Of a stretch of 42,039 nucleotides of DNA, positions 206-42,039 are shown piece by piece (the stretch's first letter is position 1; every line of letters starts with the position of its first letter). The DNA is from a virus. The translations under genes and the position numbers were made by a program. Below the pieces are notes generated by a model that was not told where the DNA came from, did not search any database, and was given only the letters and a program-made list of their open reading frames with translations. The stretch is taken from positions 1 through 42,039 of the IMG/VR virus record IMGVR_UViG_3300035670_000483; one strand, written 5' to 3'.

Positions 206-368
206 CAAGGCCAATGCCTTGCTTGGTGGTGGTTTTACCTACCTGTGCAGTAATCCCCGGCTCAGCACCGACAGCAGCCTTAGCCACATCCCCAGCGATA
301 GACACAGGGGACAGGCTTGAGCAGCCCGTTAGTGCTAGGGCTAGGGTAAGTGCAGCTAATGCTTTCAT
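1..368 (-). CDS. spanin-like lipoprotein, N-terminal part (cut by window start)
   Basis: The start codon at 368 overlaps the terminase stop as ATGA. The protein opens with a short signal peptide and a lipobox, MKALAALTLALALTGC, so Cys16 would be lipidated and the protein anchored in the outer membrane. A periplasmic stretch rich in Thr, Val and Gln follows. The frame continues without a stop across the window end into 41834-41711, where a hydrophobic segment and a short tail complete a 163-residue protein. An N-terminal lipid anchor plus a C-terminal membrane helix is the layout of one-piece (u-) spanins, which join inner and outer membranes in the last lysis step. That function is inferred from architecture and from its place beside holin-like and lysozyme genes; I do not recognise the sequence itself. 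Confidence 0.75.
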   Translation of the reverse strand, partial: MKALAALTLALALTGCSSLSPVSIAGDVAKAAVGAEPGITAQVGKTTTKQGIGLAVAQEESSEVSPNVDVDQAGVVNTVTKASKKTVQQRQSFTTGNVQAETVNLTGNDTESLAIAFLAGLI

Positions 369-2113
369 CGTGTTCTACGTCTCCCATTAGAGCGTGACTT
401 GGAGCATCCCCCCGGGATACCCATAGGGTTCTGCATGAACTGTTTCCAGTCATCTAGCTTACGCTTCTCAGCGTTGGCTTCCTCGTCCACTTCCAATGCA
501 GCGGTGAACATTGCCACCATGCCAGCCAGTGCTTCCACACGGTCATCGTGAGCCAGTGAGCCACGGTCTGGAGTAACATTGGACAACTGATAGAATAGAC
601 TGAACTCTGGCCCATTATTCTTGAGCTTACGGCAAGCCTTCATGTCCTGTTCAATCACTTCTTGGTGTATAACCAAGCGATGTCTCTTCATGACGTGATT
701 GAGGCGGCCTATGATGCGCAGCTCCTTTTGCCCTGTACTGTACTTACCTTCCACGGCTATGCCTAACTTCTGGCGGTTAATCTCAGCACGGAACAGGGCT
801 GGTACAGTACCGTGCCCCATGTTGTCCTCTATCTCTAGGTAAGTGCAGCCTAGCTCTGCCAACTGGGACACGCACTCCCGTATGTTGTCCTCAGTCTGGC
901 CTCCATGATAGATAATCTGGGCAAGGTCGTGGATGTACGGGCCAACAGCCGTGCCTACATGGCACACCGATTCATCAGAGCCACCCCCTGCCGGGTCTAG
1001 GTAAGCCTTAACCTCTCCCTTGATAACCCAGTCATCAGAGACCGAGGCTGGGCTATACATATAGCAGGGGTGTACTGGAAAGTCAGGGGGTAACTCCACT
1101 CGGAACTTAGGCAAGGAAGACCAGTGCATAATCTCAGGAATGGAGTCAGAGCCCCCTGCCCACACTATCAAGTCTTGCAACTTTAACTGCTGCCGCATAG
1201 CATCGGACAGGGTAGTGTCCAGCATGAACTGTAGCTGGAAGCCATGCTCTTGGTAGTCCAAGAACTTCTTGATTAAGTCCTCTTCGGAGTACCGGCCCAA
1301 GTCTACTGAGCGGCCCTTAGTCCCGTCTAGCCCGTACCCTGTGCGCAGTGTAGGGTTATCCAGCATCTGCCTCTTAATGATAGGTGCGAGTAACCCACCG
1401 TACCGTTCTTCCTCATCAGGAGAAGGGAAGCGCCCCGGCCAGATACGGACTGTGTAGCCACGGCTAGGTAGGGTGTTGTAAATACTGTCCTTGGTCTGTG
1501 GCGTCCCCAGGTAGATAATCTTACCGTGGGTACAGATAGCCGAGAACTCCTTGGTCAGGGTAAGCAGCATAGCCCGGTTAGTTGCAGACATACCGTTGCG
1601 GGTAGTCTCAATATCATCTGCCAATAGAATATCTGCACGATTACCTTGGAGCTGGCCTGTGATACCTATGGACTTCACAGAGGGTTGCTTGTCCACACCA
1701 CGCAGGGTGTAATGGACGTCGAACCCCTCGGACATACTAGCCCGGTCTCCAGCAGCCTTGTCAGGGCGGAGATAATCAAGCCTATCCCAGTTAAGAATAG
1801 ATTTGACCATTGCATAGCTCATTGTATTAGCGAAGTCCTCACCTGCCGATACAATGAGTACCCGTGTCTTAGGGTCTAGTACAAGTGCCCACAGGGCGCG
1901 GGCCAAGGCTATAGTAGACTTAGCCTCACCCCGTTGGGCCATTACACATATATTATCCAACTCATCGCTGGACAGAAACCTGCCTATATCAGCTTGGATT
2001 TCAGTTAGGGAGAAGCCTAGCCACTCAAAGTAATCCCGCAGGAACAACTCAAAGTTCCCCTCGTAATGCTGGCGCATGATAAGGGCTTTACCAAAGCGGG
2101 TCTTTAAGTCCAT
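365..2113 (-). CDS. terL: terminase large subunit (DNA packaging ATPase/nuclease)
   Basis: This 582-residue protein is the motor that cuts concatemers and pumps DNA into the prohead through the portal. A Walker-A-like loop of the T7 gp19 type lies near residues 59-67 (AQRGEAKST), a Walker B strand near 160 (ADILLADDIE), and the nuclease half begins around residue 370 with LDPAGGGSDES, carrying acidic metal-binding residues. Length fits the T7-like family. It follows the small subunit after a 9-base gap with a good ribosome site, and its stop overlaps the start of the lipoprotein gene. The C-terminus is basic (SRSNGRRRTR). Confidence 0.95.
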   Translation of the reverse strand: MDLKTRFGKALIMRQHYEGNFELFLRDYFEWLGFSLTEIQADIGRFLSSDELDNICVMAQRGEAKSTIALARALWALVLDPKTRVLIVSAGEDFANTMSYAMVKSILNWDRLDYLRPDKAAGDRASMSEGFDVHYTLRGVDKQPSVKSIGITGQLQGNRADILLADDIETTRNGMSATNRAMLLTLTKEFSAICTHGKIIYLGTPQTKDSIYNTLPSRGYTVRIWPGRFPSPDEEERYGGLLAPIIKRQMLDNPTLRTGYGLDGTKGRSVDLGRYSEEDLIKKFLDYQEHGFQLQFMLDTTLSDAMRQQLKLQDLIVWAGGSDSIPEIMHWSSLPKFRVELPPDFPVHPCYMYSPASVSDDWVIKGEVKAYLDPAGGGSDESVCHVGTAVGPYIHDLAQIIYHGGQTEDNIRECVSQLAELGCTYLEIEDNMGHGTVPALFRAEINRQKLGIAVEGKYSTGQKELRIIGRLNHVMKRHRLVIHQEVIEQDMKACRKLKNNGPEFSLFYQLSNVTPDRGSLAHDDRVEALAGMVAMFTAALEVDEEANAEKRKLDDWKQFMQNPMGIPGGCSKSRSNGRRRTR

Positions 2114-15391: not shown

Positions 15392-15467
15392 TGGTGCCTG
15401 TTGTAGGAATCGAACCCACGACATCCTCGTTACAAGGGAGGCGTTCTACCAACTGAACTAAACAGGC
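15392..15467 (-). tRNA. tRNA-Thr (anticodon UGU)
   Basis: On the minus strand the 76 bases fold into a full cloverleaf. The acceptor stem is GCCTGTT with AACAGGC, the D arm GTTC/GAAC, the anticodon loop CTTGTAA reads UGU (Thr, ACA codons), and the T arm GTGGG-TTCGAAT-CCTAC has one G-T pair. CCA is encoded after discriminator A. The base pair closing the anticodon loop (31:39) is C-C, a mismatch. It lies downstream of the capsid terminator, inside the late transcript. Confidence 0.95.
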
Positions 15468-19893: not shown

Positions 19894-19914
19894 CTTCATA
19901 GTGCTGTGTTTCAT
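19894..19914 (-). promoter_or_regulatory. phage RNA polymerase promoter P2
   Basis: The minus strand reads ATGAAACACAGCACTAT then GAAG, identical to P1 and P3. CACTAT followed by GAAG matches the core and start of the SP6 promoter (CACTATA then GAAG) and is close to that of T7, so the predicted first base is G at 19897. The resulting leader is only 26 bases before the 54-residue gene. Confidence 0.8.
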
Positions 19915-20051
19915 AGGCTGTGTCTCCGTTGGATACTCTTATAGGCTGTCTCTATATCAACACCGGATAGCCTATGGTTTCTGTATAACCTTTGCAGGTA
20001 GTAGCTGTAACTTCTGTATCTAGGTTTACACATCAGCAGGTCATGTTCCTC

Positions 20052-20197
20052 ATCTATTACCTTGCCTCTCTAACTTCCGTTAGTGTACTGGTGTACCACC
20101 TCCCTCTTCTGTGCGGGTGTGTGAAGGGATTCTCATCCAGCTAAGTATTTATCCTTAGCCATGCTGCCCCATAGGGGCCCGCGGGAAGCCTTGCTTC
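20052..20197 (-). ncRNA. structured leader RNA, copy 1 (late transcript)
   Basis: Starting at the predicted +1 of promoter P1, the RNA can form: hairpin GAAGC-AAG-GCUUC (20197-20185); GCCCC-UAU-GGGGC (20178-20166); GCUAAG/CUUAGC (20159-20140); GGAU-GAGA-AUCC with a GNRA loop (20138-20127); CCC/GGG around a conserved ten-base loop GCACAGAAGA (20117-20102); GGUG-GUA-CACC (20100-20090); CUAAC-GGAA-GUUAG (20083-20070); then the conserved GAGGCAAGGUAAUAGAU. The inverted copy at 39178 keeps all of these with compensatory changes in three stems. It contains no gene. Role is unknown; it could be a regulator, a packaging or replication RNA, or a stability element of late mRNA. Confidence 0.8.
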
Positions 20198-20214
20198 ATA
20201 GTGCTGTGTTTCAT
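20194..20214 (-). promoter_or_regulatory. phage RNA polymerase promoter P1
   Basis: Same 17+4 base element as P2 and P3 on the minus strand, with predicted first base G at 20197. It overlaps the TAA stop of the methylase-like gene. It would drive the late genes through the structured leader. Confidence 0.8.
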
Positions 20215-20897
20215 TAAGCCTTTGAATTTGCTAGGAATACTGCCTTGGCAAAACCCCTTGGAGTAGCCGAACGTATGTTCTTAGTCTTTAGAGATTTACC
20301 ACCCAACTTTTTATACTGATCTGAATAGCCAGCCTCTACCGTGACTGGGTCCTTTGTAGGCATCACGAACCCCCCGCCAGCCCATATGCAGGTTTTCTTT
20401 GGGTAGGCATCCCTAGGCTTAATATACTGAGGGTACTGTGGGTGCTGGTCTCCCTCAGGAAGGTATCCCCCGTACTCCCACGGATGAAACGTATAATCTG
20501 GTTTTCTCCAGAGGGTTGATAATACCGATACCGGGTTCTCCGCACCCCAAGGACAAGAATATAGCTCACCTACTTCTTGTACTAGCTTGGCTAACCTAGC
20601 CGCATGTATTTGTATGTCAGGGTTAACCGCTAGTTTCTTCTTGAAGTGTGCAGTTCCGCTTACGGCTAGATGGGTGCACTCAGGGAAACCAAACACAAAC
20701 TGCACCCCCTCACCTACCAGCTCACCTATAGATTGGGCACTATTGGGGTATAGCCACATTCCTACTGTTATGTGAAGCCCGTTCCTATGTACCCCCTCAG
20801 GGTGCTGCCCATCAAAGCACCAGCACTCATACCCAGCATCTAGCCAAGGTTGGGCCATAATCCCAGTAAAGTCATACAAAAATATAGCTTTCTTCAT
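20214..20897 (-). CDS. cytosine-methylase-like protein
   Basis: This 227-residue protein begins MKKAIFLYDFTGIMAQPWLDAGY, a degenerate SAM-binding motif I of C5-methylases. FGFPECTHLAVSG at about residue 70 stands where motif IV (PCQ) is expected, here Pro-Glu-Cys; GAENPVSVL near 120 resembles motif VI (ENP/ENV); the C-terminus ATPRGFAKAVFLAN is shared by a family of phage proteins loosely annotated as C5 DNA methylases. The Pro-Cys pair is broken by Glu, so activity on DNA is uncertain. It follows the RNA polymerase gene by 16 bases. Promoter P1 overlaps its end. Confidence 0.65.
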   Translation of the reverse strand: MKKAIFLYDFTGIMAQPWLDAGYECWCFDGQHPEGVHRNGLHITVGMWLYPNSAQSIGELVGEGVQFVFGFPECTHLAVSGTAHFKKKLAVNPDIQIHAARLAKLVQEVGELYSCPWGAENPVSVLSTLWRKPDYTFHPWEYGGYLPEGDQHPQYPQYIKPRDAYPKKTCIWAGGGFVMPTKDPVTVEAGYSDQYKKLGGKSLKTKNIRSATPRGFAKAVFLANSKA

Positions 20898-20913: not shown

Positions 20914-23349
20914 TTAACAAAAGAAGAATTGGCTTGAATTTACATAGTCTAATTCTAGTGTGCCTATGCTTAACTCCGGCATGTTGTACTGTGCCGCCAG
21001 CTCAGCTAATACAGTACAAGTCTTGTGCATATTAACAAATTCCCGCCGGAGTATATTGTGCAGCCTGCCAGCATCCGCTGCATGTGTACCAAAAGAGTCA
21101 TGGACAGATACGAACTGGATGCCCTCTATATGGCAGGTGTCCAGAGTCTTTAACAAGTGGCTAGCATCCAAGCTGTGTACGAAGTTAGGGCTAATACCGT
21201 TGGCTGCTTTGTTAGGCTCAGGAACGTTAGTACGGTTGTACACCTGTATGCTACGGGTCTTGTACACCCCTAAGGCTACATGCTGTTTGTGTTCCTTCCC
21301 GTACTGATTGACTACCTGAGCCCCTGTAGGTGTAGTCCACATTACATGTTTCCCTTCTTGAGCAGCATTACGGGCCAACTTACGCAACCAGTCCATACAT
21401 TCTACAGCCGCCGGCACCACGTCCCGCATACTGGCCATGAACTTGCTGGCAAGATATAAACCAAGCCGTCTAGTGGAGTACCCTTCAGGGATAGCCGCGC
21501 CTGTATCATGCAGGTAATCACACATGTCCCCGGCAATTCCCACAAGGGTAGCCCCATACACAAAGGTCATGACAGGGGGCTTAGCCAATGCCCGAGGGAT
21601 TCCGTGCTCAACCCAGAACTTGGCTTCCAGCAAGTCCTTGCACTCCGGGTCAGCAGCATCCTGCTTGCACCTATCTAGGACTATGCTGGCCGCGTAGCTG
21701 TAAATGTCTGCCTTCTGCCCAGGATGATCTATTAGGTTAGTCCACTTCCCTCCTACTGGGTCACGTAGCAGAGCAGAGAAAACTTGTAACCCGGAACAGG
21801 TGGCATCCCACTGGGTAATGCACCGGCTCATATAAGTCTCTGGGCTGCCTGTGTTAAGGGCGTTGACCAGCTCTAGTGATGCCACATAAGCACACATTGG
21901 GGAGTCTGCCTGCTCCCAGAAGTCTTGATGTAGCTGGGGTATTACTATAGCCTCCCTCAGTCTAGATAGCATCTTCTCAACGTACTGGGCGCGGGAGTCA
22001 AAGCCTTCCTTGTCAAAGCCGAAGCAATTGGCTATATGCACCTTCAACCAGTACAGTCCTTCCTTGCCCAGGGGCTTGGCCTCGGCCAGTTCCAGCAGGG
22101 CCTTCTGGGAGTCTACTCCTTGAGGGTTAAGGGTAGTGTGATAGTACAGGCGGCCCCGTGTGTCTGCATAGGTAGGCAAGTAAATGGCATTATAATCCTT
22201 GACTCGTTGGGCGTCTCGGAGGGCACGATACACAGAGTTAATCACAGACTTGTAAGTCTTCTGCTTGTCATGCCAACGGCGGCGCATGTCCCGGTACCAT
22301 GTACACTCTTGTACCAGTTCTTCATCCCCTCTTAGCTTGGCCTCTTTGATGAATGCAGAGATATTCACTACTCCAGTCAGAAATGGTGGGGTAGGCGGCT
22401 CCCGTGGTGGACTGGGTAGTCCGAACCCGCCTGAGCCTATGACAGCCTCCAGCAGGGTTAGGGCGGCGGCATTAACCCGGTATGGTACAGCACTGAGCTT
22501 ATCCAGTCCTTGCATCACAGGGGACATATCCAGCTTGAGGGCTCGATAGTCCTTACTGCGCATACCAGTAAGCCCCAAGTAATTAACTCCTAACTCCCCG
22601 GAGTAGTACATACCCCCAATTCCTTGGGGGTTAACCGGAACAGGTGGACGGAGTAACACAGGGTTACAGCGGTTAGGGTTAGGCCGCTCTAACACCCCCT
22701 CAATAGACTCCGCTACCTCTGGATGCAGCTCTACAGTGTGGACTGGGCTACCCTTGCCGGTAGCTGTGCGGGTGAACTGGAACAGCCCGGTGCCCTCCAA
22801 GGCATCCACAACCAGTCCGCCTATAGTCACGATGCCGGTAGGCTGTAACTCCGCTGGGGGAATCCCCATGTTGTTCAGGGAGGCCCGTACCGTCCGGTAA
22901 GCATGGTTCACGTCCTTGGTCTTCCGGTCGGCCAGTTGCTCCTGAATAATCTGGCAGTACATGGGGTTAACCTTGCTAGCCCGTTTGAAGTTGTACTCAG
23001 CCAGCACTGCCTTGCCTATCCCTTTGCAGGCCGCGGCCAGTGTGCCTTTGGTAAGGGCCACCTCCACCATGATGGACAGGCCAAGGCAGGCTACCTCTGC
23101 CTCCCCAACATCACGCAACATACCGCGGTAAGCCCCGCCCCAGCCACGGGAGCGGGTCTCGGTAATCTCCTTGAGCTTGGCTTCTACGGCAGGAAGGGCC
23201 AAGGCCATAGCCCGGTACAGCAGGGGTACAGTTTCGTAAGTCCCCTCTGACATACAGCGGCGCACCATGCCCACCCACTCTGTATGCCGTGTCAACAAAG
23301 CCTGTTGCTCATACGCAACGTGTTCTTCAATAGAGAGTTCAGGGAGCAT
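20914..23349 (-). CDS. single-subunit DNA-directed RNA polymerase
   Basis: This 811-residue T7-type polymerase (T7: 883) transcribes the late genes. Palm Asp is in QWDATCSGLQ (about residue 514), the fingers helix KPPVMTFVYGATLVGI supplies Lys and Tyr (about 590-598), and the second catalytic Asp is in SVHDSFGTHA (about 751). The protein ends FFFC, where T7 ends FAFA; the C-terminal carboxylate and aromatic residues reach the active site, so a Cys end is noteworthy. Position directly before the structural genes is the phiKMV hallmark. Its promoters are most likely the three repeats found here. Confidence 0.97.
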   Translation of the reverse strand: MLPELSIEEHVAYEQQALLTRHTEWVGMVRRCMSEGTYETVPLLYRAMALALPAVEAKLKEITETRSRGWGGAYRGMLRDVGEAEVACLGLSIMVEVALTKGTLAAACKGIGKAVLAEYNFKRASKVNPMYCQIIQEQLADRKTKDVNHAYRTVRASLNNMGIPPAELQPTGIVTIGGLVVDALEGTGLFQFTRTATGKGSPVHTVELHPEVAESIEGVLERPNPNRCNPVLLRPPVPVNPQGIGGMYYSGELGVNYLGLTGMRSKDYRALKLDMSPVMQGLDKLSAVPYRVNAAALTLLEAVIGSGGFGLPSPPREPPTPPFLTGVVNISAFIKEAKLRGDEELVQECTWYRDMRRRWHDKQKTYKSVINSVYRALRDAQRVKDYNAIYLPTYADTRGRLYYHTTLNPQGVDSQKALLELAEAKPLGKEGLYWLKVHIANCFGFDKEGFDSRAQYVEKMLSRLREAIVIPQLHQDFWEQADSPMCAYVASLELVNALNTGSPETYMSRCITQWDATCSGLQVFSALLRDPVGGKWTNLIDHPGQKADIYSYAASIVLDRCKQDAADPECKDLLEAKFWVEHGIPRALAKPPVMTFVYGATLVGIAGDMCDYLHDTGAAIPEGYSTRRLGLYLASKFMASMRDVVPAAVECMDWLRKLARNAAQEGKHVMWTTPTGAQVVNQYGKEHKQHVALGVYKTRSIQVYNRTNVPEPNKAANGISPNFVHSLDASHLLKTLDTCHIEGIQFVSVHDSFGTHAADAGRLHNILRREFVNMHKTCTVLAELAAQYNMPELSIGTLELDYVNSSQFFFC

Positions 23350-24091: not shown

Positions 24092-25055
24092 TCTTTGCTC
24101 CTACCCATCTACCTGTCTCGTCCATAACCATAGGAACCAACACTGGCTCCCCGTTCATAATCACTGCACAGCCCAGCATGGGCTTGTTCTTGGTGTGCTT
24201 TCCGTACGCAAAGGCCAGACTCTTACGGTCAATGCCACAGCCTGCCACCATACCCCAGTACAACCTAGTGCTGGACGCTGCATAGCCTATCTTGAACTGC
24301 CCATGCTCATGCCCTACCGCTACGTTACAGCCTTCATGTGCAGCATCAGCCACTACATCCCCGCTAGCTTGGTGCTTGAACAGGATTAGGCCAAGCGGGG
24401 TGTTAATCTTCCACCCGTCCCGCCATGACCAGCCCGGAGCACCATGCTCAGGGAACAGCACATCCCGGTACTTCTTAATGTACTGCACAGGCAGGCCGTG
24501 GGCCTTGGCCCTGCGGTATATCAGGGAGCCATGGTTACTGTTACAGAGTAGCAGGTTAGGAAAGGCTGTGTGCCACTGCTCCAGCATGGACTTGGCCTTC
24601 TCCAACTCTGCCCCAGCACTGTCTAGGTTAGGGTCTGAATCGTGAAAGCTGATACTGTGTTGGTCAACTTCATCTCCCGCCTGTACTACCAAGTCAGGCT
24701 GCACCTCTGCTGCTACAGCCTTGCAGAAGTCCAGATAGTCTGGGTGGGTGTAGGGTGCATGTAGGTCAGTGATAAACAGGATTCGCTCAGCGCAGTCTGG
24801 GATAAAGGACAAGTCCCCAATATCATCCTCTGGGCTTGGGCTAATCAGGCGCATCTGCTCACGCAGCGCCTTGTCAGCCTTGGCCTGTGAACCCGCATTA
24901 GTGATGAATACCTCCCGCCAATAGCGGGTTAGTTGCCGAGATATGCCCTTGCCAGACAGTCTGGTGAACTCACTGGCCGCCGCCCGGTCTGTCGGGTGGG
25001 CAGTCAGGACTTCCTTGATTTGTGTCGGGGTGAACAGCTTCATTAGCTTCGCCAT
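24084..25055 (-). CDS. metallophosphoesterase (DNA phosphatase/exonuclease family)
   Basis: This 323-residue protein carries the calcineurin-like signature: ILFITDLHAPY (D-x-H), VQAGDEVDQHS (GD), LLCNSNHGS (N-H), and AVGHEHGQF (GHxH), in that order from about residue 90 to 280. Residues 1-80 are a helical domain with basic patches (LTRYWREVF) that may bind DNA. In phiKMV-like phages this gene follows endonuclease VII and is annotated DNA phosphatase or exonuclease subunit. The start overlaps the upstream stop. Confidence 0.85.
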   Translation of the reverse strand: MAKLMKLFTPTQIKEVLTAHPTDRAAASEFTRLSGKGISRQLTRYWREVFITNAGSQAKADKALREQMRLISPSPEDDIGDLSFIPDCAERILFITDLHAPYTHPDYLDFCKAVAAEVQPDLVVQAGDEVDQHSISFHDSDPNLDSAGAELEKAKSMLEQWHTAFPNLLLCNSNHGSLIYRRAKAHGLPVQYIKKYRDVLFPEHGAPGWSWRDGWKINTPLGLILFKHQASGDVVADAAHEGCNVAVGHEHGQFKIGYAASSTRLYWGMVAGCGIDRKSLAFAYGKHTKNKPMLGCAVIMNGEPVLVPMVMDETGRWVGAKNE

Positions 25056-34562: not shown

Positions 34563-35283
34563 CTAAATTAGTCCAGCAGAAAGGACTCTGAATGCTGTTG
34601 CAGCCACAATTGGTACTTGTCCATTTCGAATCCCGTCAGTGCGGCCCACGTCTCTGGCCATCCCATCATCCATTCCTCGAAACGTGGACAATGCACTCTT
34701 CCAATCTCGGTCTTGCGGAATGGGTTTGATGATCCGCCCCCATTCGTCCAGTCTTCCAGCTATGTGGTTCACTCCGCCATTCACTCCGCTTGGGGTAGGC
34801 AAGAATCCACATTCTATCTCGCTTGTGAATTTTGCCGAGGTGCCAAGCTCCAAGCACGCACCATCTAGAGTCATACCCCATCTCGGCAAGGTCTGACAAG
34901 ACAATATCCAATCCTCTAGTCCTAAGCAGCGGGGAATTTTCTGCGAACACAAGACCAGGCCCAACTTCCCCAATGATTCTTGAATATTCCTTCCATAATC
35001 CGCTGCGGCTTCCATCAATTCCAGCGCCTTTGCCTGCGCTGCTAATGTCCTGACATGGGAATCCTCCTGTGATAATGTCGATCTTGCCGCACCAGGGATT
35101 TCCGTTAAATGTCGATACATCATCCCACATTGGGAATTTATCGAGAACTCCATCTCTTTGCCTTTGTTGCAGGCAAGCTCTTGCGTCGTCTCTAATCTCA
35201 ACTGCGCACACGGTATTGAATCCAAGTAGTTTTGAAGCGAGAAGTCCACCGCCCCTTCCTGCAAATAATGCCAACTCATTCAT
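34563..35283 (-). pseudogene. cytosine-C5 DNA methyltransferase, frame broken
   Basis: From 35283 the frame gives motif I LALFAGRGGGLLASKLLG, motif IV GGFPCQDISSAG with the catalytic Cys, motif VI FAENSPLL and motif VIII HKRDRMWILAYP, then continues as non-homologous residues to a stop at 34666. The +1 frame picks up exactly there: PSGVNGGVNHIAG, then DDGMARDVGRTDGIRNGQVP IVAATAFRVL, which contains motif X, to the stop at 34563. One C too many in the C4 run at 34792-34795 explains the shift. The joined protein would be about 239 residues with a very short target-recognition domain. It may be a dead gene, a sequencing error or +1 frameshifting; intact, it would methylate phage DNA against restriction. 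Confidence 0.85.
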
Positions 35284-35308
35284 ATTCCCTCCTGTTGGTT
35301 ATACCTAG

Positions 35309-38963: not shown

Positions 38964-38994
38964 CCGCCTGTATGCCCTTCGGGCTGCTAGGCGG
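38964..38994 (-). other. hairpin in the early leader
   Basis: Stem CCGCCT/AGGCGG with an inner GCCC-TTC-GGGC, placed between the candidate promoter start site and the first early ribosome site. It may protect the 5' end of the early transcript. Confidence 0.5.
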
Positions 38995-39016
38995 TGTATC
39001 TCGTTTCGATGGAGTA

Positions 39017-39046
39017 ACCTTAGCAAAGCGGATTTATTGGTGTCAA
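39017..39046 (-). promoter_or_regulatory. candidate host sigma70 early promoter
   Basis: On the minus strand TTGACA (39046-39041), an 18-base spacer ending in the extended element TGC, then TAAGGT (39022-39017). The -35 is perfect, the -10 matches three of six. It lies about 75 bases upstream of the first early gene in an AT-rich stretch, the only such candidate I find there. Confidence 0.5.
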
Positions 39047-39160
39047 ATTTATTTTTAGTCTTGTGTGTAAAGTTTGATGTATATCACATTCTTCAGTCTA
39101 ATCAGTACCTAAAAACAGGGGTATTTACCAGTCTAAAACTCCTTATATATCAATAACTAA

Positions 39161-39181
39161 ATGAAACACAGCACTATGAAG
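39161..39181 (+). promoter_or_regulatory. phage RNA polymerase promoter P3, facing away from the genes
   Basis: Identical 17+4 base element to P1 and P2 but on the plus strand, predicted first base G at 39178. It reads toward the non-coding tract and would be antisense to the late-end genes beyond 40143 if not stopped. Confidence 0.78.
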
Positions 39182-39325
39182 CAAGGCTTCGGGCCCGTCC
39201 CTATGGGACAGCAGGCTCTGGGGAACCGCCCTCAGGGTGGATGAGAATCCCTTCACACACGGGCACAGAAGACCGAGGTGGCACACCATTACACTGATGA
39301 TAATCAGGGAGGCAAGGTGATAGAT
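39178..39325 (+). ncRNA. structured RNA, copy 2 (plus strand, near presumed genome end)
   Basis: Inverted homologue of the leader RNA at 20052-20197. Hairpins: GAAGC-AAG-GCUUC (39178-39190); GUCCC-UAU-GGGAC (39197-39209); a bulged CUGGGG/CCCUCAG; GGAU-GAGA-AUCC (39239-39250); CGG/CCG around GCACAGAAGA (39260-39275); GGUG-GCA-CACC (39277-39287); CUGAU-GAUA-AUCAG (39294-39307); then GAGGCAAGGUGAUAGAU. Against copy 1 the second, fifth and seventh hairpins differ by compensatory base-pair changes (one, two and two pairs). Loops and linkers GCACAGAAGA and CUUCACACAC are unchanged. A 27-codon frame starts in the promoter itself but has no ribosome site and is not kept in the other copy. Confidence 0.8.
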
Positions 39326-40142
39326 ACGGAACCAAGGTAAAGAATCCAATAGATACAGACTGAACCTATAGATATAGATACCAAGGATATGGATACTGAT
39401 ACCCGCTAGCACAGCTCCTAGGTACAGGACAGGTCACGGGGCGGAGCCCCAGGTATAGAGGGTGCAGGACAGAACAGCCCATAGATAGGCCCGGCAGTAG
39501 CCCTGAAAAGAGGTAGGGAACAAGGGCAGGCACCAGCCATAGGTAGCCAAGGAATAGGCATAGGGTAGCCAAGGGATAGGCCAGGGTAGGCAAAAGAGGT
39601 AGGAGGGTAGGCCAGTAGGCACAGGGAGGTAGCCTAGGGATAGGCAGAAAAGAGGTAGATGGGTCAGGACACTCCCCAGCCCACCCCTCCCCACCCACCA
39701 CCGCCAAGCCCTACCAAGCCCGGCAGAAGCCCTAGCCAAGCCCAACAACAGGGCGGAGCCCTAGTACTAGTAGGTGCAGACCAGTCCAGCCCAGCACAGG
39801 CCCCGGACATAGCCCTAGCCATGCACCAACCAGACACCATGGCTGCCCACCGCCTAGCCTGTACACACTACACATAGCACACACAAGACAGGCAAGGAAC
39901 AGGCCCTAGGACAAGCCCAGGGCCATACCCTATGCCTACCCATAGCCTATCCCCATGCAATGCAGCATAGAGCGTTCTAGGGCCATCCCCGGCCATGCTA
40001 TAGGCCCAGCCTAGGCCAGGGTAGGCACTACCCCCGGTCTAGCCCAGCCCCAGCATGGCGGGTACCCCTACGGGGGAAAGGGAGGGGCTGGCTGGGTCGA
40101 GGACACCCTCGCAAATCTGCACCATTTTTAGCCCGAACCGGT
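39326..40142. repeat. low-complexity TAGG/CCTA-rich non-coding tract
   Basis: About 800 bases without a convincing gene on either strand. From about 39380 the plus strand is built from degenerate short units such as GGTAGGC, GGGATAGGC and GTAGCC, turning to CCTA/CCCAGC-type units after about 39670. A unit GGGGC-GGA-GCCCC followed by an AGGTGCAG-like stretch (39438-39450 on) recurs at 39750-39762 as AGGGC-GGA-GCCCT. T7-like phages carry arrays of short repeats beside their terminal repeats, so the physical genome ends and packaging site probably lie here. Confidence 0.6.
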
Positions 40143-40718
40143 CTACACATAAGGCCACGGTAAGTCCGTAGTGCCTTCATAGAAGGTCAACCACCAGAAC
40201 ACAGGGCTTGCTGCCTGAGCACTGTGGTTAGTAAATGTGAACACGTGCTGCCGGTTAGGGCCTAGTACAGTCTCCTTACCCGGGGCATCTGTCCCAATCT
40301 TGGAAGACCCTGTACCTGAGCCTATAATTGAGAATGGCCGGAGATACTGCACCCCCTGCACTGTAACTGTAGGGTTAGTAACCACAGTAACCTCTGTCGT
40401 ATTAGCACTGGTCGTGTTGGCATTGGTTGGCGTTGGTACAGCCGTACCTCCTGTGAAAGTACAAGAGTGTGCAGCACTGTACTGCAACTCTGTAGCGCCC
40501 CCACCAAAGGTGATTATACGGCTCTTAATCAGCACTGGCTTGCTTCCGGTAGTGAACCCTATGGTAACAGTAGCCCCTGCCCCTATAGTTGCAAAGCGGG
40601 TACTTACATCAAACTCTACTCCGTTCTTAACATTCGCCTCGGTATAGCTCTGCACAGTGAAAGCCCTGCGCCCAGCTAGGACTGACAACAGCCAGCCCCA
40701 TACCCCTGCTTTACCCAT
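40143..40718 (-). CDS. late protein of unknown function, likely virion-associated
   Basis: The 191-residue protein starts MGKAGVWGWLLSVLAGRRAF, then is beta-rich and Thr/Val/Gly-rich (VEFDVSTRFATIGAGATVTIGFTTG, here key pieces TRFATIGAG and VTIGFTTG; later HVFTFTNHSAQAASPVFWWL). Such composition suits a head or tail decoration protein. It is the last gene before the non-coding tract, coupled (TGATG) to the 71-residue gene. Not recognised. Confidence 0.7.
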   Translation of the reverse strand: MGKAGVWGWLLSVLAGRRAFTVQSYTEANVKNGVEFDVSTRFATIGAGATVTIGFTTGSKPVLIKSRIITFGGGATELQYSAAHSCTFTGGTAVPTPTNANTTSANTTEVTVVTNPTVTVQGVQYLRPFSIIGSGTGSSKIGTDAPGKETVLGPNRQHVFTFTNHSAQAASPVFWWLTFYEGTTDLPWPYV

Positions 40719-40933
40719 CAGTAAATCTCCACCTTACACCCAGCCGGAATGACTAGGCCGGTAGGGTCTGTGAAGTCAATCTCTGTGTGGGCACTAATTT
40801 GGTACTCATCCACTACCACTGGGGTAGTATCAGCCGTACCCACCACCGTGACGGCCTTCCCTGGAGCAACATACACCAGACACTTCCGTAGGCCCATCTC
40901 GGACACAAGTGTGTCGGTTGTGAGTAATCTCAT
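40718..40933 (-). CDS. small late protein, likely virion-associated
   Basis: This is a 71-residue beta-rich protein (MRLLTTDTLVSEMGLRKCLV...TGLVIPAGCKVEIY). AAGGAGC lies upstream and the stop overlaps the next start. With the 191-residue partner it forms a two-gene unit after lysozyme. Not recognised. Confidence 0.68.
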   Translation of the reverse strand: MRLLTTDTLVSEMGLRKCLVYVAPGKAVTVVGTADTTPVVVDEYQISAHTEIDFTDPTGLVIPAGCKVEIY

Positions 40934-40942
40934 ACCCGCTCC

Positions 40943-41386
40943 TTAGAGCATACGGATAGCGTCAATCATATCAGTGGCACGGACAGGGGTTTGCTTCATC
41001 CACTTAGATGCTTGGATGCCAGAGATAGCCCCACGGAAATCCCCTGCCTTGAGCAGCGGGTACGACCCAGTGAACACAGCCTTGAAATCCCCGAGTTGGA
41101 AGTTAGCACTGGCCAGTACAACCATGAACCACGAGTGATGGATTCCAAGCTCAGCGGCCTGTTCCTCTGCCTTCTTAACCGCTTTCTGGCAGTCCTTAGC
41201 GAACCAGTCCGAGACCTGTTTCTCGGTGACAGCATCCCCCAGTTTAAGGGACTTCAACTCAGTGCCCGTTAAAAGGTGCCCAATGCCAGCTGTAAGCTTT
41301 CCTAGGTGGTCAGCATACACTTGCATTACCTTACCCTCGCGCTTCGCTAGGAGGCCTTCTAGGGCCTTTAAATCAACCTTGTACAT
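40943..41386 (-). CDS. endolysin, T4-type lysozyme
   Basis: The 147-residue protein starts MYKVDLKALEGLLAKREGKV at 41386 after AAGGAG; the longer open frame upstream is not used. The glycoside hydrolase 24 triad is intact with T4 spacing: Glu17, Asp26, Thr32 in REGKVMQVYADHLGKLTAGIGH. It cuts peptidoglycan glycan strands. No signal peptide, so release needs the holin-like protein encoded just upstream. Confidence 0.95.
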   Translation of the reverse strand: MYKVDLKALEGLLAKREGKVMQVYADHLGKLTAGIGHLLTGTELKSLKLGDAVTEKQVSDWFAKDCQKAVKKAEEQAAELGIHHSWFMVVLASANFQLGDFKAVFTGSYPLLKAGDFRGAISGIQASKWMKQTPVRATDMIDAIRML

Positions 41387-41394
41387 ACGACTCC

Positions 41395-41778
41395 TTATTG
41401 TCCCCAGAACATTCCAGCAGCCTGCAACAGGCCGGACACATCCCCGGACTTCCATGCAGCCACAGCAGCGGCTACAACAACAACAAACCCGGCCAGCCAT
41501 TTCAGGCCACGGGCAGCCCCACTGAGCAACTTCCCAGCGGCTTGTAACGTAGTCTTAATCTCTTGAATGTCTTCCACAATCTTTAGCTTCTCCAGTACAA
41601 GGTTCCACCGCTCATCCCCTTCTTTCTGGGCAGCGCGGAACGTCTCGGCCAAGACCTCCACACGGGCTACTACCTCATCCACCTTACTGACATGGCCCAT
41701 AGCCTGTTGCTCAAGATGGCATACCCGTGTCTCCAGCTTCCCCAGTTCCCGATACAGCTCTTTGCTCGGCTCTTCCAT
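41395..41778 (-). CDS. holin-like protein (coiled coil plus C-terminal membrane helix)
   Basis: In this 127-residue protein, residues 1-75 form a charged coiled coil (LYRELGKLETRVCHLEQQAM, VARVEVLAETFRAAQKEGDE), and residues about 90-110 are hydrophobic (LKWLAGFVVVVAAAVAAW). This XhlA-like design, next to lysozyme and spanin genes, suggests the holin or a holin partner. It begins inside the end of the spanin-like gene in another frame. An inner-membrane spanin subunit is a less likely alternative because the membrane helix is at the C-terminus. Confidence 0.6.
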   Translation of the reverse strand: MEEPSKELYRELGKLETRVCHLEQQAMGHVSKVDEVVARVEVLAETFRAAQKEGDERWNLVLEKLKIVEDIQEIKTTLQAAGKLLSGAARGLKWLAGFVVVVAAAVAAWKSGDVSGLLQAAGMFWGQ

Positions 41779-42039
41779 TCGTATGTCTCGCCCATGCTGG
41801 TGCAGGTAGCACCCAAAGTAATAACAACAGGGGCGGAATCAGGCCAGCTAAGAAGGCTATCGCCAAACTCTCTGTATCGTTCCCTGTGAGGTTCACAGTC
41901 TCAGCCTGTACGTTCCCCGTAGTGAAGGACTGGCGTTGCTGTACGGTCTTTTTAGAGGCCTTGGTGACAGTGTTTACTACACCGGCCTGGTCTACGTCTA
42001 CATTAGGAGAAACCTCAGAAGACTCCTCCTGTGCGACAG
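41711..42039 (-). CDS. spanin-like lipoprotein, C-terminal part (cut by window end)
   Basis: Right-hand copy of the gene that begins at 368. It ends with a membrane-spanning stretch SLAIAFLAGLIPPLLLLLWV and a 25-30 residue polar tail (RHTNGRAEQRAVSGTGEAGD), then stops at 41711, overlapping the holin-like gene by 68 bases. Joined to the left part it makes 163 residues. See the entry at 1-368 for the function argument. Confidence 0.75.
   Translation of the reverse strand, partial: VAQEESSEVSPNVDVDQAGVVNTVTKASKKTVQQRQSFTTGNVQAETVNLTGNDTESLAIAFLAGLIPPLLLLLWVLPAPAWARHTNGRAEQRAVSGTGEAGDTGMPS
41835..42039. repeat. right copy of 205-bp end overlap
   Basis: Direct repeat of 1-205 with a single difference (41912 G, 78 A), silent in the lipoprotein gene. 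Confidence 0.93.

Follow-up and report, generated by a model that had tools for sequence, protein, structure and literature searches.

The T7 promoters phiOL and phiOR, which are read by the phage polymerase, have roles in replication and in concatemer processing, and both face in the same direction as the T7 genes. Together with the T7 promoter A0, they appear to be the nearest parallel to P3, the terminal promoter that is the subject of this work. Like P3, phiOL and phiOR are located near the genome ends (T7 positions 405 and 39229), but P3 faces in the direction opposite to the genes and would transcribe into the left terminal repeat. A0 is, like P3, near the left end and directed toward the terminus, being annotated as a leftward promoter at position 224; however, A0 is read by the host polymerase, whereas P3 has the same sequence as P1 and P2, which are phage promoters. 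The T7 left end also differs from the window, i.e. the whole 42,039-nucleotide stretch of viral DNA analysed here, in that it has no long U-poor tract. In the cases of KP34 (promoter S2, positions 475-490) and JG068 (left promoter), a phage promoter lies, as with P3, within the left non-coding region of a phiKMV-like phage, but both of these face the genes. A further likeness is with the pRNA of phi29, a phage non-coding RNA made from a genome-end promoter, which is short and fully structured; the RNA predicted for the window has no Rfam match. The phiKMV-like phages are a large group with therapy candidates among its members, and, to our knowledge, the replication and maturation of their DNA ends are largely undescribed.

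Genome layout and the outward-facing promoter P3

The ends of the 42,039-base record overlap by 205 bp with 1 mismatch, giving a circle of 41,834 bp, and the window is a complete, circularly permuted phiKMV-like phage genome. T7-type terminase, head-tail connector and nozzle proteins are encoded, and the best phage matches of the RNA polymerase are from phiKMV-like Autographiviridae. The minus strand carries all of the long ORFs as well as the tRNA, with the order, from approximately 39,000 downward, being early genes, replication, RNA polymerase, methyltransferase, P2, P1, structural genes and terminase; the lysis region follows the terminase, spans the contig ends and stops at 40143. Because the contig closes on itself via the end overlap, the region from 40143 to 42039 is part of the late/lysis end. 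Since the gene at its edge is a homologue of ORF57, the final gene of the LIMEzero genome, 39,182-40,142 corresponds to the left non-coding end, a region also present in LIMEzero, J8-65, phikF77 and phiKMV. The relevant genes and promoters are as follows:

365-2113, minus strand: large terminase subunit (53-54% to LIMEzero and J8-65)
19894-19914, minus strand: P1, late promoter without a P2-type leader (exact 21-nt copy)
20194-20214, minus strand: P2, late promoter (exact 21-nt copy)
20914-23349, minus strand: single-subunit phage RNA polymerase (PF00940; 39% identical to the LIMEzero RNA polymerase)
38990-39160, minus strand: AT-rich putative early-promoter region, divergent from P3, recognised by eye only, with a TTGACA-like element near 39042-39047
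39161-39181, plus strand: P3, outward phage RNA polymerase promoter (exact copy of P1 and P2)
40143-40718, minus strand: last late gene, homologue of LIMEzero ORF57 (by homology)

The 21-nt sequence ATGAAACACAGCACTATGAAG has exactly three exact occurrences in the genome, i.e. P1, P2 and P3, and none of 100 dinucleotide shuffles contained a match to it, even with 3 mismatches allowed. P2 and P1 are positioned after the RNA polymerase gene plus one methyltransferase gene and read into the late genes; P3 faces out of the early end. The earlier note had P3 on the plus strand with all genes on the minus strand, and this arrangement is confirmed; given the strand of the long ORFs and tRNA, P3 points away from all genes. 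With respect to the properties by which promoters for phage single-subunit RNA polymerases are recognised, a cognate polymerase gene is present, and the near-identical copies are intergenic, with one being downstream of the polymerase gene. A consensus scan reported no plus-strand sigma-70-like site at P3 and no minus-strand promoter site in 38990-39160. On this sequence evidence, the classification of P3 as a phage RNA polymerase promoter is well supported, and the enzyme encoded at 20914-23349 should read P1-P3.

The start of the P3 RNA is predicted at 39178 from alignment with T7-type promoters together with the start in KP34. The mapped RNA start of KP34 directly follows its promoter. Two KP34 repeats, one located just after the RNA polymerase gene and the other at the left end of the genome, are promoters as judged by 5'-RACE and in vitro transcription (PMC6834552). 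The finding of promoters via repeats also succeeded for VSW-3, the promoter sequence of which was tested in vitro (PMC9624206).

Some other features of the genome merit mention. The gene between the RNA polymerase gene and P2 encodes a DNA methyltransferase (phrog_757; 20214-20897, minus strand) and shares its end with P2. Approximately 700 bp at 34587-35290 are, at the DNA level, 75-76% identical to a Vibrio phage C-5 cytosine methylase, which likely reflects gene transfer; Vibrio phage 1.091.O, the one methylase carrier examined, has a P22-like portal, coat and tailspike. A lone tRNA gene (15395-15467, minus strand) is flanked by structural genes.

Paired leader RNAs behind P3 and P2

The approximately 150 nt behind P3 align with the approximately 150 nt behind P2; P1 is without a leader of this type. 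Two predicted RNA features result:

39178-39325, plus strand: structured leader RNA of P3 (covariation with the P2 copy)
20050-20197, minus strand: P2 leader, a homologous structured RNA ahead of the late genes (alignment and covariation)

The leader fold comprises a 5' hairpin, a four-way junction and two more hairpins. All 32 of the 32 modelled pairs are kept in both the P3 and P2 copies, with double changes at 9 of them; when the model was shifted along the alignment by 1 to 6 columns, no version kept more than 13 pairs or had more than 2 double changes. An unguided consensus fold (alifold) of the two leaders has an energy of -42.8 kcal/mol, compared with a minimum of -27.2 among 100 column shuffles, and the alifold consensus contains 11 double changes, compared with a maximum of 6 among 100 column shuffles. 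The minimum free energy of the leader is unremarkable (z -0.03, -1.49 and -1.13), i.e. it is covariation, not minimum free energy, that supports the structure. The proposal of a structured RNA after P3 in the earlier note is borne out, and is stronger than when first made, because there is a second copy behind P2. In being present as two compensating copies, the leader is a candidate RNA element on the late mRNA.

A covariance model of the leader, applied to 91 sources, recovered both window copies and gave no convincing relative outside this genome, with one further match at E 0.59. A match of 18.8 bits at 24445-24550 (plus strand; E 0.0042) is within coding sequence and was judged to be due to chance. 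The leaders of G007 and G018, which are among the further genomes considered below, are duplicated at the sequence level as well; we do not claim a structure for these, as their consensus folds fail to beat column shuffles.

Leftward terminal promoters in related phages

Comparison with ten named relatives reveals a leftward phage promoter at the left end in six. The matches in LIMEzero, J8-65, phikF77, phiKMV and LIMElight were reached by 0-1 of 100 shuffles; that in Lidtsur, for which the shuffle test was not significant (7 of 100), rests on a 16-nt exact inverted match. KP34, KpV475 and JG068 have a gene-facing (rightward) terminal promoter, and VP93 has a promoter in neither direction in the ten-relative comparison. 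The scan of the named relatives covered 320 nt behind the RNA polymerase gene; P2 of the window lies farther away, so the identification of P3 rests on its exact copies. No leftward phage promoter is present among the annotated features of the LIMEzero, J8-65, phikF77, phiKMV, LIMElight and Lidtsur records.

We extended the comparison to 32 further genomes, i.e. near-full-length contigs found by terminase alignment, of which several resemble close Pseudomonas relatives of phiKMV, with which they share promoter letters, and are not independent. A leftward promoter match was observed at 0-1 of 60 shuffles in 22 of the 32 and at 2 of 60 in one more. The opposite strand carries a promoter at 0-1 of 60 shuffles in five, alone in G015 and G029 and as part of divergent pairs in G016, G017 and G026, and seven have a promoter on neither strand. 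At the junctions of the three genomes with divergent pairs (L062, L065 and L080, respectively), one phage promoter is directed toward the genes and the other toward the genome end. In VSW-3 (L152, 34846-35550), the terminal promoter faces the genes, and the non-coding tract that comes after it in that direction is poor in T and rich in A and G. A search of viral_contigs by RNA polymerase, exact promoter or conserved leader motif yielded no relatives.

Misassembly is an alternative explanation for the orientation of P3 that was raised in the earlier note; the P3 segment would have been inverted through the exact inverted 31-nt match common to P2 and P3. It is very unlikely, as independently sequenced relatives have the promoter in the same place and orientation and as the P3 and P2 leaders differ at many positions. 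The promoter and its conservation are well supported; its function we infer.

Judged by title and opening of the abstract, none of the papers listed in the literature searches describes a phage promoter that faces leftward at the end of a phiKMV-like genome. The portions consulted of PMC3765740, PMC10134795, PMC7316996, PMC5537680, PMC4411677, PMC11317132, PMC6834552, PMC9624206, PMC13029058 and PMC12272871 contain no mention of one. An earlier report of a leftward terminal RNA is possible.

The U-poor tract, the predicted genome terminus and their possible roles

The features between P3 and the last late gene are as follows:

39178-40100, plus strand: predicted terminal run-off non-coding transcript, U-poor (T 12.6% vs 25% in the genome)
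39505-39658, plus strand: three GAAAAGAGGTAG-type repeats (at 39505, 39591 and 39647), with the motif of the terminal-repeat inner edge in relatives
39670-40100, no strand assigned: predicted direct terminal repeat (DTR) of ~430 bp (from the DTR edges of relatives and the purine to C-rich switch)
40085-40130, no strand assigned: predicted left genome terminus, cut 40100|40101 (GGGTCGA|GGACACCCTCGCAAATC...ATTTTTA matches J8-65 and others)

The plus strand from P3 to 40100 is the most U-poor stretch of the genome, with the lowest composition windows overlapping the tract. It is purine-rich first and C-rich nearer the genome end, and the four ORFs tested in 39143-39877 have no PHROGs match. Its description as repeat-rich holds, in that it contains GGTAGCC-type and GAAAAGAGGTAG repeats. 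In seven of the seven genomes examined (the window, LIMEzero, J8-65, Lidtsur, phiKMV, phikF77 and LIMElight), no other stretch is as U-poor as that between the promoter and the genome end.

With respect to the terminus, relatives with known terminal repeats (either annotated or derived from contigs, with contig overlaps of 24-127 bp set aside as probable assembly overlaps) have the outer edge of the repeat within a conserved motif, and in most of them the inner edge follows a AAAAGAGG-type purine motif. The presumption that a genome end lies near the tract is supported by this homology, 40100|40101 being a match to the terminus motif of the relatives. The position of the inner edge near 39670 is uncertain, and three copies of the inner motif are apparent in the sequence. 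With the terminus at 40100|40101 and the repeat at ~39670-40100, the P3 RNA would run off the genome end, which is predicted to be ~920 nt from P3. The purine motif at the DTR inner edge in several phiKMV-like phages is of the CAAAAGAGGCA type (window copies at 39505, 39591 and 39647, plus strand) and may be a terminase or polymerase-pausing signal.

In all six of the DTR genomes examined, including KP34 and KpV475, in which a leftward promoter was not detected, the low-U bias stops at the left edge of the DTR, with normal base use beyond. This observation bears on antisense control, another proposal of the earlier note; for this, a transcript made on concatemers would pass 40143 and silence the last late/lysis genes. 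On closed or concatemeric DNA, the orientation of P3 does oppose 40143-42039, but mature linear DNA cannot yield the antisense part. Such control is not favoured, as the U-poor signature does not continue past the genome end (40100 in the window, with 40143 being reached only on concatemers), and we consider it improbable.

In 29 of 29 genomes that have a leftward promoter, A, which corresponds to U in the leftward RNA, is less frequent on the transcribed side (mean 10.4% vs 25.7%). This comparison is unbiased for six of them (the window, LIMEzero, J8-65, phiKMV, phikF77 and LIMElight). It is biased for the 23 from the further set (the 22 with matches at 0-1 of 60 shuffles and G008, with 2 of 60), since the region searched for their promoters was itself chosen by its position relative to the most A-poor window. 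KP34, KpV475 and G015 retain a U-poor terminal tract though their terminal promoter faces the genes, so the bias is not strictly tied to the promoter. It may thus be that the bias is a DNA-level property, related to ejection, terminase binding or strand mutation, with the promoter being incidental or serving only for local opening. The three genomes that are biased without a clear leftward promoter, and the conserved purine motif at the DTR inner edge, which is consistent with protein recognition of DNA, are in accord with this possibility; however, the bias starts at or near the promoter in cases where the promoter was found independently of composition, and in VSW-3 it is to the right of the rightward promoter that the T-poor stretch lies. 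A DNA-level origin is, in our view, unlikely.

In terms of calculated hybrid-minus-duplex energies, the part of the genome that most favours a hybrid in the transcribed direction is the pre-repeat tract, with no window lower. On the same measure, the tract in phiKMV, phikF77, Lidtsur and LIMEzero falls within the lowest 0.12-0.53% of windows, and its rank is more modest in J8-65 (3.7%) and LIMElight (4.2%). These energies would favour an R-loop or a run-off transcript for end copying or maturation.

We propose that P3, via the phage polymerase, would drive an ~920-nt non-coding RNA, the path of which would include the folded leader, the U-poor tract and the terminal repeat before run-off at the left genome end. 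Because U with A forms the weakest RNA:DNA pairs, this U-poor, purine-rich transcript may remain paired with its template, forming an R-loop that covers the genome end, and the R-loop, or the polymerase on it, may serve end replication or the processing of concatemer junctions. That the terminal run-off transcript forms a stable RNA:DNA hybrid that serves replication or maturation of the terminal repeat is quite possible, if somewhat short of probable. A broader proposal, in which an outward promoter in the phiKMV-like group gives rise to a U-poor R-loop that reaches the genome end and is required for copying or duplicating the terminal repeat, with the folded leader, in two co-varying copies here, marking the terminal RNA and the late mRNAs, is more doubtful. 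The prediction of an outward, non-coding transcript that is dedicated to the genome end, as proposed in the earlier note, is well supported by sequence and holds across relatives. The sequence support extends to the identity and orientation of the promoter, the structure of the leader, the low U content of the tract, the position of the terminus and the conservation in relatives; a role in priming replication or in acting at the terminus would fit with this anatomy.

Alternatively, the transcript may act in trans as a free RNA, either in the packaging motor like phi29 pRNA or as a sponge for a host RNA-binding protein or ribonuclease, in which case its low U content would shield it from RNase E. 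The conserved folded leader at its 5' end, its long non-coding body and its repeat part, which folds better than shuffles (z -2.79), are compatible with such action, but the pre-repeat body is no more structured than shuffles (z +1.35), the body sequence differs between genera, and Rfam gave no family match in the tract at gathering score and nothing relevant, i.e. weak chance matches only, at E up to 10. The evidence for a GGA/CsrA-type sponge is mixed: A-N-GGA motifs are above shuffles in phiKMV (4 of 200 shuffles reach the count) and phikF77 (2 of 200), but GGA alone shows no enrichment in the three genomes considered, i.e. the window, LIMEzero and phiKMV. Overall, we regard action in trans as unlikely.

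With regard to the R-loop proposal, the tract is a candidate for an R-loop that a single-subunit RNA polymerase would form in nature, and the conserved, unannotated promoter with its predicted non-coding RNA at the genome end provides a precise element for deletion tests.

The leaders of late mRNAs behind the RNA polymerase gene in phiKMV-type phages (G022-G027) are likewise purine-rich; thus, purine richness is not special to the genome end. In VP93 (L013), an A-poor tract is present near 42251, within the record and 1.3-1.7 kb from its right end, and the annotated ends of VP93 may be misplaced.
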